Shown: positions 46,202-49,348 of the stretch, piece by piece
Position numbering within the stretch: position 1 is the stretch's first letter
Layout: the number at the start of each line of letters is the position of its first letter
Origin: Prevotella sp.
GTDB lineage: Bacteria > Bacteroidota > Bacteroidia > Bacteroidales > Bacteroidaceae
Direction: 5' to 3'
Assembly (NCBI GenBank): GCA_017554105.1
Contig: JAFZIY010000018.1
Coordinates: 1-64,000, forward strand
Length of the DNA stretch: 64,000 nt
Notes under the pieces: model-generated
Databases searched by the model: none
Seen by the model: only the letters and a program-made list of their open reading frames with translations
Told to the model about the DNA's origin: nothing
Position numbers and translations under genes: made by a program

Positions 46202-46921
46202 ATGAAGAAGACCACGCAGGAGCAACAAGTAATAGAAGTGCTTCGCAAGGTTGGAGGTTATGCAACTTTGCGGAAGCTCAATGAACTCGTGGATTTTTCC
46301 ACATGGGCAACAAAGACTCCTGAGGCTTCTGTAAGGCGTATTGTTCAAAACAGCCCTGAGATATTCAAAATTCAGCCAGGTCTTTGGGCTTTGGAAGAAA
46401 TGCGAGAAAATGTACTCCGCAAGTTTGAGCTGAAACCCGGAAACAGAAAGAGTGAAGATGTATTCACTCATGGTTATTATCAGGGACTGCTCGTGGAAAT
46501 TGGGAAATATAGACATCAGATAACATACGTGCCGGCACAAGACCAGAATCGTTTGTTTATTGACAAACGTTTGGGCGAAATAACGGATACTATTGAATTA
46601 CCTAGCTTTACTCACGAAGACTTAAGGCGAAAGGCCAAGACTATTGATGTGATATGGTTCAATGAAAGGCAGATGCCCTCAGGCTTTTATGAGGTAGAAC
46701 ATACTACTGACATTAAGAATTCCCTTTCCAAGTTTTACGAACTTCAGGATTTCAATGCAGGTTTCTATATTGTGGCCGATGCATGTCGCATGAAAGAGTA
46801 TGAAGATAAATTACATGTGTCGATGTTCAAAGTCATTGAAAACCGTGTAAAATTTTTGGATTACAAGCGTGTCGTTAACATGTACGAAGGTTTGAAGAAA
46901 GTTGATGTATCCGTTTGGTAA
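46202..46921 (+). CDS. winged-helix plus nuclease-like protein, candidate restriction endonuclease
   Basis: This 239-residue protein has an N-terminal winged helix (residues about 1-65: VIEVLRKVGGYATLRKLNELVDF...SVRRIVQNSPEIFKIQPGLWAL) resembling the HARE-HTH fold that occurs fused to restriction enzymes. The C-terminal half looks like a PD-(D/E)xK nuclease: HGYYQGLLVEIGKYR (residues 90-104), then Asp149 in IDVIWFN and the pair Glu164/Glu166 in GFYEVEHTTDIKNSLSKFYEL. It is not similar to DpnII or DpnI. Its place between HigA and a DpnA-type methyltransferase makes it the best candidate for the restriction enzyme of the system. Catalysis is inferred. Confidence 0.7.
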   Translation: MKKTTQEQQVIEVLRKVGGYATLRKLNELVDFSTWATKTPEASVRRIVQNSPEIFKIQPGLWALEEMRENVLRKFELKPGNRKSEDVFTHGYYQGLLVEIGKYRHQITYVPAQDQNRLFIDKRLGEITDTIELPSFTHEDLRRKAKTIDVIWFNERQMPSGFYEVEHTTDIKNSLSKFYELQDFNAGFYIVADACRMKEYEDKLHVSMFKVIENRVKFLDYKRVVNMYEGLKKVDVSVW

Positions 46922-46932
46922 TTCGCTGAAAT

Positions 46933-46993
46933 GATCTTTTTTGATCACGAAAGTTAAACAATGATCTAATCCTTTTTTTCTCATTATTTGATC
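46933..46993 (+). promoter_or_regulatory. cluster of four GATC sites in the methyltransferase promoter
   Basis: GATC occurs at 46933, 46943, 46963 and 46990, four times in 61 bp, where one is expected per 256 bp. The last copy lies 2 bp before the -7 box (46995). Two are in the context ATGATCT and two in TTGATCA. Confidence 0.85.
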
Positions 46994-47002
46994 ATACTTT
47001 TG
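46974..47002 (+). promoter_or_regulatory. promoter of the DpnD-DpnA fusion gene
   Basis: A T-run (46974-46979) as -33 element and TACTTTTG (46995-47002) as -7 box lie 19 bp before the ATG at 47021. The last GATC of the cluster sits in the spacer. Confidence 0.7.
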
Positions 47003-47020
47003 CGGCAGATTCTGTCGCAA

Positions 47021-48103
47021 ATGGAGTATCAAGTCACAATTACGGAAAAGCTGACTCGAACGGAATATGTCGAGGCATCTTCTGCATCAAAAGCGGAAGA
47101 GCATATCCGCAGGCGATACTCTGATTGTAATATAATCCTTGACGATACTAATTTCGTTGGTGTTGATTTCGTCGTAGAAAACCATTGGCGTGATGTTCCA
47201 CATTTATGGCAGAAGCCACTAAAAGCCTACTATAAATCTCCTTCCCACGACTTCAACCTGCTCTGTGGCGACACGTTCGAGTTGCTTCCCCGATTCTCGT
47301 TCCAGTTCGACATGATATTTGCCGACCCGCCTTATTTCTTGTCGAGTGGCGGTATCAGCGTCCAGAGCGGAAAGATTGTTTGTGTGGATAAGGGCGACTG
47401 GGACAAAAGCATGTCTCAGGACGATATCGATGCCTTCAATATGAAATGGCTGTCGCTTTGTCGGGATAAGCTGAAGAAGAATGGTACGATTTGGATTTCT
47501 GGCACATACCACAACATCTTCTCCATAGCCAACTGCCTGACGCAGTTAGGTTATAAGATTCTGAATGTCATCACATGGGCAAAGACGAATCCGCCGCCCA
47601 ATATCTCGTGCCGTTACTTCACTTACTCAACGGAGTTCATCATCTGGGCGAGAAAATCGCAAAAAGTTGCTCACTACTACAACTATGAATTGATGAAGAA
47701 ACTTAATGACGATAAGCAGATGACGGACGTATGGCGACTGCCTGCCATTGCCCCTTGGGAAAAGAGATGCACGAAGCACCCGACGCAGAAACCCATTGGA
47801 TTGCTGAGCCGTATTATCATGGCTTCAACGAAAGCTGGTGCTTGGATTCTCGATCCGTTTGCTGGCAGTAGCACAACTGGAATAGCTGCAAACCTTCTTG
47901 GGCGTAGATTCCTGGGCATTGAACGTGAAGAGGAGTTTGCTGCAATCAGTAAGGCCAGACGTGAAGAGATTGAGAACATAAAGACGTTTGCAACTTATCG
48001 CCACAAGATACCTGACATCGTGAAGGCAGAGGACACACAGACGGATTGCTTTATGTGTAATGAACCTATTATTGAACGACTGCCTTTTTTGGCGGATGAA
48101 TAG
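47021..48103 (+). CDS. DpnD-DpnA fusion: GATC-type adenine methyltransferase
   Basis: This 360-residue protein seems to be a fusion. Residues 1-54 (EYQVTITEKLTRTEYVEASS, then SDCNIILDDTNFVGVDF) match the small DpnD/PcfM-like domain known from DpnI loci. Residues 70-320 are a beta-class N6-adenine methyltransferase very like DpnA, the second methylase of DpnII systems: FADPPYFLSSGG (DPPY at 102-105), VDKGDWDKSMS, NISCRYFTYSTEFIIWARK, HYYNYELMKKLNDDKQM, KHPTQKP, and DPFAGSSTTG (278-287). A CxxC (DCFMCNEP) tail of about 45 residues is extra. Specificity for GATC follows from DpnA similarity. The start at 47021 follows the promoter; an in-frame extension to 46988 overlaps it. Confidence 0.88.
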   Translation: MEYQVTITEKLTRTEYVEASSASKAEEHIRRRYSDCNIILDDTNFVGVDFVVENHWRDVPHLWQKPLKAYYKSPSHDFNLLCGDTFELLPRFSFQFDMIFADPPYFLSSGGISVQSGKIVCVDKGDWDKSMSQDDIDAFNMKWLSLCRDKLKKNGTIWISGTYHNIFSIANCLTQLGYKILNVITWAKTNPPPNISCRYFTYSTEFIIWARKSQKVAHYYNYELMKKLNDDKQMTDVWRLPAIAPWEKRCTKHPTQKPIGLLSRIIMASTKAGAWILDPFAGSSTTGIAANLLGRRFLGIEREEEFAAISKARREEIENIKTFATYRHKIPDIVKAEDTQTDCFMCNEPIIERLPFLADE

Positions 48104-48217: not shown

Positions 48218-49348
48218 ATGATTTACTTTACAGACATTGAAAAATCAAAAGAAGGTATTCTCCAGATTCTCGAGGTTATCAAGAACTACGAGAAGGATGG
48301 TGAGGTCAGGTTCATTGCTGGCATTCAAAGCCGTAACTTCTCTGAATATAAAATACAGCAATTGATATGCATCGTGCGCGAACGCCTGAACATGACGCGC
48401 CGTGAACTGCTGCGACTCTCGGAAGTTGCGCTTACGTATAATAAGTTGTGGGCTACTGACGATAATAATTGTTTCCGCGATGCAGAGAAACTGTTTCGCA
48501 AGATACGCAGTACCCTGAAAGGGACAAAGATTATCTACAAGAGATTTACTCCTATCTGTAGAAAGAACGTACCTGGCAGGGATTTCCGCCCCTCGATATT
48601 CGTAAAGTCAACACTGGCCTACGCAGAATGTGGTCGTGACTTGTACGGACTGGAGTCGTATCCTGACAGCGTGTCGACGCTCTATGCCGAGATGGGTGCC
48701 TATTTCACCAACGTAGTAGCCGTGCTGCTCATCTGCCATCAGGAACTGGCAAAGGAGGCGATGATTAGCAAGGATGCCGACCTCTGCCTTCAGTTGCTCA
48801 ACGAACAATGCAAGAACATCGTTGGAGACATGAAGGATGTGGTGGGCATGTTGTCAAAAGAAGCAGCTAGTAAAGACGAACTGCTAAAGACGAGTAAGAA
48901 GAAAGGCTCACTCAAGGTATTTGCTCAAGAGGGATTCCACAAGTATAGTATTGCCCGAGTAACCCGCTATGCCACATCGCGTGCCATAGAGAACGGTGCT
49001 GCTTTCGGACTGGATGATATTGAGTCGCTTTACTTCGTCAACGACCCAGAGAAAGGCATGAAGGCTAAAGAAATCATGACCTGTTTCGACATCTACGCTG
49101 ACAAGGGGCGTGGTACTAAAATGGATACTACGGCTATTGCGGAATTTGTCTGCTGGACGGGGTTGGGCATTGCCAAAGGCTATAAGTATTTCACTTCAAC
49201 ATATACTGGCAGTTATGACTTGCCTCAGAAAAAGAGTGTCTGGGCTCGTTTTGACAGCTACAAGAAGGCAGACCCAGAGGCTGCAAAAAACGGAGGTATG
49301 GAACGTAAATTCGCCTCTGACTTTGAAAACCGTATTAGCAAACGCTGA
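48218..49348 (+). CDS. protein of unknown function, mostly helical
   Basis: This 376-residue protein starts MIYFTDIEKSKEGILQILE. I do not recognise a family. It is mainly alpha-helical and soluble, with no signal peptide. A basic segment near residues 85-120 (KIRSTLKGTKIIYKRFTPICRKN) could contact nucleic acid. The C-terminal half has SIARVTRYATSRAIENGAAFGLDDIESLYFVNDPEKGMKAKEIMTCFDIYADKGRGTKMD. It stands between the restriction-modification island and the primase cluster with its own promoter and terminator, so it could belong to either or be an independent cargo gene. Confidence 0.75.
   Translation: MIYFTDIEKSKEGILQILEVIKNYEKDGEVRFIAGIQSRNFSEYKIQQLICIVRERLNMTRRELLRLSEVALTYNKLWATDDNNCFRDAEKLFRKIRSTLKGTKIIYKRFTPICRKNVPGRDFRPSIFVKSTLAYAECGRDLYGLESYPDSVSTLYAEMGAYFTNVVAVLLICHQELAKEAMISKDADLCLQLLNEQCKNIVGDMKDVVGMLSKEAASKDELLKTSKKKGSLKVFAQEGFHKYSIARVTRYATSRAIENGAAFGLDDIESLYFVNDPEKGMKAKEIMTCFDIYADKGRGTKMDTTAIAEFVCWTGLGIAKGYKYFTSTYTGSYDLPQKKSVWARFDSYKKADPEAAKNGGMERKFASDFENRISKR

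Follow-up and report, generated by a model that had tools for sequence, protein, structure and literature searches.

A conserved, helically phased GATC array in the promoter of a probable GATC methylase gene of Prevotella

The 64,000-bp stretch of Prevotella DNA analysed here (the window) contains four GATC sequences and an in-phase GTTAA unit in front of a gene for a fused DNA methylase. The array keeps an exact spacing, is under strong constraint and is associated with one methylase family. On comparison with its relatives it is real, conserved and very probably functional, and its position together with this constraint leads us to infer that it is regulatory. We judge it slightly better than an even bet that the four GATC and the GTTAA unit form a single operator for autoregulation, whose GATC units are read by the methylase that the locus encodes.

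The array and its promoter in the window

The initial annotation reported GATC at 46933, 46943, 46963 and 46990, and a direct reading of the window sequence bears out all four positions (Table 1). Two of its details need correction: the last GATC, described as lying 2 bp before the -7 box, is separated from it by a single base, and the chance rate of about one GATC per 256 bp is far above the local one, which is one per 1,422 bp. The window holds 45 GATC against about 244 expected under a trinucleotide model (observed/expected 0.18, about fivefold depletion); the mean of shuffled sequences, a different null, is 320 and likewise indicates depletion. Ranked by observed/expected, only one palindromic tetramer in the window is rarer than GATC, and GANTC is near expectation (194 observed, about 213 expected). 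CTAG is depleted further than GATC (12 observed, about 87 expected). Four GATC fell within the span of the array in 0.04% of 200,000 simulations with 45 uniformly placed sites. A looser pattern, GATC-N0-30-GATC-N0-30-GATC, has eight forward matches at six places in the 3.12-Mb genome to which the window belongs: two overlapping matches at the array, two overlapping matches on contig C26, and four single matches. The decisive evidence for the array is its conservation with exact spacing in relatives.

The array begins 11 bp past the stop codon of the upstream nuclease gene, and the methylase ATG at 47021 lies downstream of the putative -7 box. We base this assignment on the motif TAnnTTTG, which we take to be the Bacteroidetes-type -7 box; across the aligned arrays the first T and the TTTG of TACTTTTG vary little or not at all. 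Since units 1, 2, GTTAA and 3 repeat every 10 bp, they lie on one face of the DNA helix. GTTAA, not being a GATC, offers no site for GATC methylation. If transcription starts at 47007, a position guessed from the promoter box, units 1, 2, GTTAA and 3 would be near -72, -62, -52 and -42, and GATC4 near -15.

Table 1. Features of the array locus in window coordinates
Feature	Position	Strand	Basis or occurrence
RelE/Gp49-type toxin-like protein, 114 aa	45581..45925	+	profile searches
HTH_3 antitoxin-like / controller-like protein, 101 aa	45891..46196	+	profile searches
Probable endonuclease, 239 aa; N-terminal winged helix (HARE-HTH-like), C-terminal D..ExE core	46202..46921	+	PADLOC REase_II 4.6e-6
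GATC unit 1	46933..46936	.	in 56/59 distinct arrays
GATC unit 2, 10 bp past unit 1	46943..46946	.	in 59/59 distinct arrays
GTTAA unit, in phase, 10 bp past unit 2	46953..46957	+	GTTAA in 39/59 arrays, variants in 20
GATC unit 3, 20 bp past unit 2	46963..46966	.	in 59/59 distinct arrays
GATC unit 4, 1 bp before -7 box	46990..46993	.	in 19/59 arrays, only DpnD-fused methylase loci
Putative -7 promoter box TACTTTTG, TAnnTTTG type	46995..47002	+	sequence and array alignment
DNA methylase, 360 aa; DpnD-PcfM fused to CcrM/DpnA-like N6_N4_Mtase	47021..48103	+	Pfam, structure search, alignment
DpnD-PcfM domain coding stretch (PF14207, residues 3-48)	47027..47164	+	44.8 bits, over family cut-off; E 1.8e-10

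Conservation and modularity of the array

Homologues from named genomes gave 111 loci encoding a relative of the methylase, of which 80 were kept. Full-length DpnD-fused relatives retain the GATC spacings of 10, 20 and, mostly, 27 bp, and in many unfused relatives the first three GATC lie about 2.2 kb upstream of the methylase, directly before a stand-alone DpnD gene. The 37-row alignment of arrays is almost gapless, with GATC 2 and 3 invariant. Besides GATC itself, TGATC flanks, T-tracts and a GTTAA-like unit are conserved, and mean pairwise identity is 0.81-0.90 in the core versus 0.28-0.34 in the 48 bp upstream. Between the window methylase and that of L035, dN is 0.136 and dS 1.56, and most other pairs are saturated; by this substitution pattern the window methylase is under purifying selection. 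Because spacing and core are kept while synonymous sites are near or beyond saturation, the array is under strong constraint. A position weight matrix (PWM) gives 44-96 bits for the 31 array loci that were found, an in-sample range (leave-one-out minimum 45.9, median 81.9), and has zero matches of 10 bits or more in 2.16 Mb of background, a total that includes both strands. We also considered a phage-borne array and set it aside: the exact four-GATC pattern occurs in 106 viral-contig stretches, whose best PWM score is -20.9, and none is array-like.

A sequence-only model built from 34 arrays and run on 299 genomes of the genus, with the best 16 first-look candidates scored per genome so that weaker arrays elsewhere could escape, gave 48 matches, of which 41, from 40 genomes, reach E 1.2e-9 or better. 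Each of these strong matches lies on the same strand as a methylase-family match, 7-3373 bp upstream of it, and has DpnA-type methylase coding sequence beside it, partial or broken in a few cases. Two of the seven weaker matches are near a methylase (three exact GATC in G117, a partial array in G051). The five others include G070, G014, a match before DpnM and DpnB on another contig (G002) and a promoter near ribosomal-protein-like ORFs (G188). The fifth (L258, G222:C1:15761) consists of two GATC 20 bp apart before an unrelated 814-aa ORF, itself beside a Vsr-like ORF; at E 3e-6 it is possibly due to chance. Among 344 genomes of the order, with the best 13 candidates scored in each, a match at E 1e-6 or better was found only in the window's own genome, and the exact four-site pattern has seven matches in 399 genomes of the family, all at DpnA loci. 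In each genome searched, strong arrays were found only at the methylase locus, which makes a locus-encoded reader likely and a global host regulator unlikely.

Sorted by methylase class, the array accompanies 11 of 11 full-length matches of the genus sample, the window included, so that GATC clustering, which the initial annotation proposed to look for in orthologous promoters, is indeed kept there. It accompanies 29 of 45 matches of at least 64% identity that start at residues 44-75 (a count that takes in the two weak matches, G117 and G051) and 1 of 24 matches of lower identity; a further 12 of the 92 methylase rows, being partial matches, fall in no class. The remaining 16 of the 45, some of them near contig ends, have no array match, and the methylase can therefore work without the array. 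GATC4 is present in 19 of 22 fused loci versus 0 of 37 others (Fisher P 1.1e-12, relatedness ignored, and with L221, L224, L253 and L086 re-assigned by hand from the script's 'DpnA' bin to fused on the basis of their N-termini).

The DpnD/PcfM domain and the array usually go together. Among the 72 of 80 named loci with enough upstream sequence (the other eight were excluded), 29 have both, one has DpnD only (L038, decayed), two have the array only and 40 have neither; L086 is counted here as DpnD, and since the loci share ancestry these numbers are not independent of one another. The array can exist without the domain, however. Six array genomes have no PF14207 match anywhere, in a search that did find the domain in four genomes known to have it. 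Three of them combine a full three-GATC array with an open methylase frame (G129, L095 and L058); the others have a partial array with an open frame (L096), a shortened methylase of 248 aa (G079) or an interrupted one (G044). In L249 the array stands immediately before a methylase from which the DpnD domain has been lost, and in L095, L265 and L267 it precedes DpnM. The proposal that DpnD is an obligatory reader is weakened by the six genomes, above all by the three with a full array and open frame, but it is not overturned.

In a quick tree of methylase bodies, whose flagged long branches leave details unsure and in which L096 and L264 are labelled array loci despite their partial or weak arrays, the fused loci are scattered with 17 changes of state, and GATC4 shows 14, of which the starred branches force at least six. 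The window methylase body shares 91% identity with its counterpart in L037, an unfused methylase in a DpnII-type locus, and the body of L063 almost matches the one in L068, a locus lacking both DpnD and array. A single origin of the fused type is disfavoured by this scatter, and domain and body look mosaic. Array and DpnD together look like a module that has been joined to different methylase bodies, and the array may help to explain the DpnD/PcfM domain, whose coding sequence usually follows it immediately.

Several loci depart from the common layout. L259 (G129:C159) has two arrays separated by 2.2 kb; a truncated small ORF and an unrelated gene now follow the upstream one. On the minus strand of L268 an array (~4193) is followed by a small ORF unlike DpnD (MEIKESIKEKVEACLRKNE...) and then by DpnM (3849), DpnB and DpnA; a similar small-ORF start also stands behind the upstream array of L259. 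L260 / L235 (G044:C1:911489-912363) pairs an intact three-GATC array with the interrupted methylase (open stretches of 70 and 230 aa), and a HARE-type nuclease gene lies on the strand opposite to it. L079:1559-1630 and L080:212-264, which are near-identical in methylase, carry a different array before DpnM and without DpnD, built of tandem 19-bp repeats with a GATC every 19 bp; a similar arrangement may have arisen there independently.

The methylase, its probable target and the neighbouring nucleases

The window methylase is a beta-class N6-adenine methylase (PF01555 at residues 97-311, E 2e-58, with a DPPY motif). It has the N6_N4_Mtase domain and the AdoMet motif, and DPPY and DPFxGSST are invariant in 14 of 14 aligned methylases. 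Among solved structures it is closest to CcrM (6pbd) and to a protein that bears the name DpnA (5hek). The best match in a plasmid collection, with 58.1% identity over residues 80-313, is on pSRQ700 of Lactococcus lactis, which we take to be the LlaDCHI plasmid; this relative, the plasmid's second methylase, is flanked by a DNA adenine methylase and a type II endonuclease. LlaDCHI is a GATC (DpnII-type) system (PMC4190342). In Prevotella communis (L048) a relative shares an operon with MethyltransfD12 (DpnM, 1.8e-59) and a DpnII endonuclease (1.3e-96), and many loci repeat this order of DpnM, DpnII endonuclease and methylase. Because of the 58% identity to the second methylase of pSRQ700 and the relatives' synteny with DpnM and the DpnII endonuclease, a GATC specificity of the window methylase is well supported by sequence. 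The initial annotation had allowed that a specificity other than GATC would undo its proposal; identity and synteny point to GATC. GANTC, which the CcrM structure might suggest, is disfavoured, since GANTC is not depleted and the operon partners of the relatives are DpnII-type. In Prevotella intermedia, another second methylase to which GATC was assigned reportedly failed to protect DNA when expressed in Escherichia coli (PMC5608340), a comparison by description and not by homology.

The window locus itself is not of the DpnII type: no PF02086 or PF04556 match lies in the 1.5 kb before the methylase, and no DpnM was found in the window's own genome at E 1e-20. Median GATC observed/expected is 0.32 in array genomes (n=20, own included), 0.34 in genomes with the methylase but no array (n=20, although G117 in this set does carry a weakly scoring three-GATC array) and 0.51 in genomes without the methylase (14 of 20 sampled, six being left out for a contig under 10 kb). 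We do not take GATC depletion as proof that the system is active, for it is genus-wide and only weakly linked to the locus (P = 0.04 for array versus no-methylase genomes).

The nuclease next to the array varies among loci and is of DpnII, DpnI or HARE-HTH type. In the window the slot held elsewhere by DpnI is occupied by the HARE-HTH-like nuclease, in which D149, E164 and E166 are conserved in 9 of 9 family rows. Its relative in L063 matches HARE-HTH at 4.7e-5, just under the cut-off, and four of nine family members, the window's own not among them, match at E 0.1 or better. Comparison with DpnI detected no homology (hhalign probability 0.22%, E 0.27), and a profile search of solved structures found no relative. 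Structure prediction was poor for both proteins, with a mean pLDDT of 45 in the methylase and 60 in the nuclease, and was left unused; a fold search with the nuclease model gave no match at E 0.001. A toxin-antitoxin-like pair stands directly before the nuclease gene. The same pair occurs near array loci L028 and L069, and the HigA-like gene alone was matched in L033/L077; as a reader of the array the HigA-like protein is disfavoured by its presence near the array in these few loci only. The 376-aa ORF downstream of the methylase (48218-49348) has no Pfam, NCBIfam or PADLOC match at E 0.1.

In seven loci (L060, L086, L227, L271, L266, L259 and L264) both the DpnI and the methylase matches are free of inner stops, and the methylases of DpnI loci are, like that of the window, under purifying selection. 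DpnI always lies upstream on the same strand. The intervening array is strong in six loci, where DpnI ends 7-716 bp before it, and weak and partial in L264. DpnI of L086 matches PF06044 at 8.1e-79, with DpnI (4esj) as its nearest structure. Five other DpnI are 46-56% identical to it (the L271 match covers residues 1-247 of 257; DpnI of G079 is a fragment), and D53, E64 and K66, which we take to be the catalytic residues, are invariant. DpnI cleaves GATC that is methylated on both strands and acts poorly on hemimethylated sites (PMC12707154), and pneumococcal DpnA is described as a single-strand methylase (PMC3573125). The two could therefore coexist if the methylase seldom makes a fully methylated duplex.

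Full DpnM was not found in the 19 genomes with HARE-type (12) or DpnI-type (7) loci: in a search for the DpnM family at E 1e-20, 16 had none and three had fragments that end by residue 147 of 299, several of these genomes being incomplete. The three DpnII-type control genomes have one DpnM each. Full DpnM is found in most DpnB loci with enough sequence, except L077, L081 and L089, and also in some loci without a recognised nuclease, such as L042, L061 and L071. N-terminal remnants of DpnM (about 40-146 residues) stand upstream of HARE-type or DpnI genes in L035, L062, L063, L072, L224, L227, L059 and L106, and L063 also keeps an inner piece; loci of these two nuclease types yielded no full DpnM. 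At published winged-helix nuclease loci, adjacent adenine or N4-cytosine methylases are reported to be frameshift-inactivated (PMC11037411). With no DpnM found in it, and if its DpnA-like enzyme acts on single strands as the pneumococcal one is said to, the window's genome may never carry the double-stranded array in a fully methylated form.

How the array may be read, and related systems

The DpnI loci bear on the methylation-sensing switch that the initial annotation had proposed. Its core, a promoter element that senses the methylase's own product, is supported by the conserved array. Its polarity, with methylated DNA off and unmethylated DNA strongly on, was a guess and fits poorly with the DpnI loci, since an apparently intact DpnI beside an apparently intact methylase makes strong expression on unmethylated DNA hard to sustain. 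In these loci it would put the cell at risk, unless single strands are the main substrate of the methylase, and DpnI upstream of the methylase in seven loci is likewise hard to reconcile with a steady state of methylation. This recurring apparent self-conflict poses a concrete puzzle, namely how the cell tolerates a GATC methylase beside DpnI.

We favour an operator read by the methylase because methylase coding sequence stands beside every strong array and the enzyme's likely target is the repeated unit; we infer that GATC matters here as a methylase target. In such an arrangement the locus methylase would read the GATC units by binding, by methylation or by both, and its level, or the methylation state, would feed back on its own promoter, presumably negatively. 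GATC4 would lie inside the core promoter, and methylation or binding at this unit would most directly block RNA polymerase. The TGATC flanks, the T-tracts and the GTTAA-like unit point to a protein-binding operator, and their conservation counts against a reader that is simply a GATC enzyme.

These bases outside GATC also suit a conventional operator bound by a small regulator of its own, probably DpnD/PcfM, that happens to recognise TGATC with methylation uninvolved. The array is found in 29 of 30 loci with DpnD versus 2 of 42 without, and the interrupted (G044), shortened (G079) and partial-array (L096) cases could be relics. The unequal weight of the six genomes without PF14207 takes slightly from a methylase-read operator and adds slightly to DpnD. 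Against this stand the three full arrays with open methylase frames in genomes devoid of PF14207, the arrays that precede a domain-less methylase or DpnM, and the small likelihood that an operator core would coincide by chance with the target of its own operon's methylase. We regard such a regulator as possible but rather unlikely. Methylation might instead turn the promoter on, so that an unmethylated promoter is silent and a methylated one sustains itself as a two-state epigenetic switch. Positive feedback of this kind would explain the intact methylase beside intact DpnI in seven loci, being off in unmethylated cells; it would also keep the nuclease off on entry in DpnII-type operons. Activators typically bind at distances like those of units 1-3, as computed from the guessed start site. 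In the cases described in PMC12707154, however, the effect is repressive, through methylation of the promoter in CfrBI, LlaDII and AhdI and through binding of the methylase in EcoRII, and we hold activation to be improbable.

Doubtful, too, is a further reading in which the array acts as an epigenetic fuse or polarity switch. It would restrain an intact GATC methylase under selection in cells that carry a methyl-directed nuclease (DpnI, perhaps the HARE-HTH-like protein) until a change in methylation flips the state of the genome, while in DpnII-type relatives it would control the whole operon. If this were true, a cell would alternate between two states, one with an unmethylated genome, in which methylated invaders are cut, and one with a methylated genome. 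The T-runs phased at 10 bp, visible in the consensus, could alternatively bend the DNA upstream of a weak promoter, with GATC incidental to the structure; but GATC 2 and 3 are invariant while the T-runs become A-runs in fused loci, and retention of the window's second rarest palindromic tetramer is selected, which makes bending alone very unlikely. A chance or low-complexity cluster, conceivable at an intergenic and T-rich site in A+T-rich DNA, is refuted by conservation of the array across genera and families and by empty background scans, and we assign it a negligible probability.

Restriction systems must balance methylase against nuclease on entry into a cell. A portable, conserved array of the methylase's probable own targets, common to DpnII, DpnI and HARE-HTH-like operons, would be a natural test bed for self-sensing control. 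In the open-licence literature on GATC promoter autoregulation, DpnII, DpnD and Prevotella DpnI, no description of the array appeared among the matches listed. The window methylase has its probable target sites within its own promoter, the target being deduced from relatives and the promoter from the box motif. LlaDII, CfrBI and AhdI, which reportedly involve one or two sites in individual systems, share this feature. Methylation of the target in the promoter affects methylase expression in all three and, in CfrBI, also frees the nuclease promoter, and such control is called logical but apparently rarely used (PMC12707154). Unlike them, the present element consists of several helically phased units, one of them non-methylatable, and recurs in 59 distinct promoters and in operons with different nucleases. 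The SsoII and Ecl18kI methylases are said to have a fused N-terminal repressor domain, as EcoRII does. The EcoRII methylase resembles that of the window in its extra N-terminal domain; it controls its own gene and is reported to repress only when its sites are methylated (PMC12707154). All three are cytosine-5 methylases, whereas the window enzyme is an N6-adenine methylase with DpnD/PcfM, and arrays also exist without that domain.

With DpnII and LlaDCHI the locus has a DpnA-type second methylase in common, and its relatives lie in DpnM-DpnB-DpnA operons. It differs from them in having neither DpnM nor DpnB and in its HARE-HTH-like nuclease; the two DpnII/LlaDCHI plasmid systems compared have no such array, with 0 and 1 GATC in the 300 bp before DpnM. 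In the Dam switches of pap and agn43, GATC overlap regulator sites in the promoter and respond to the host's global Dam. Here, too, GATC lie in a promoter, but it is the methylase's own, and strong arrays were found at no other locus in the genomes searched. The array is probably a variant of promoter self-sensing in restriction-modification.
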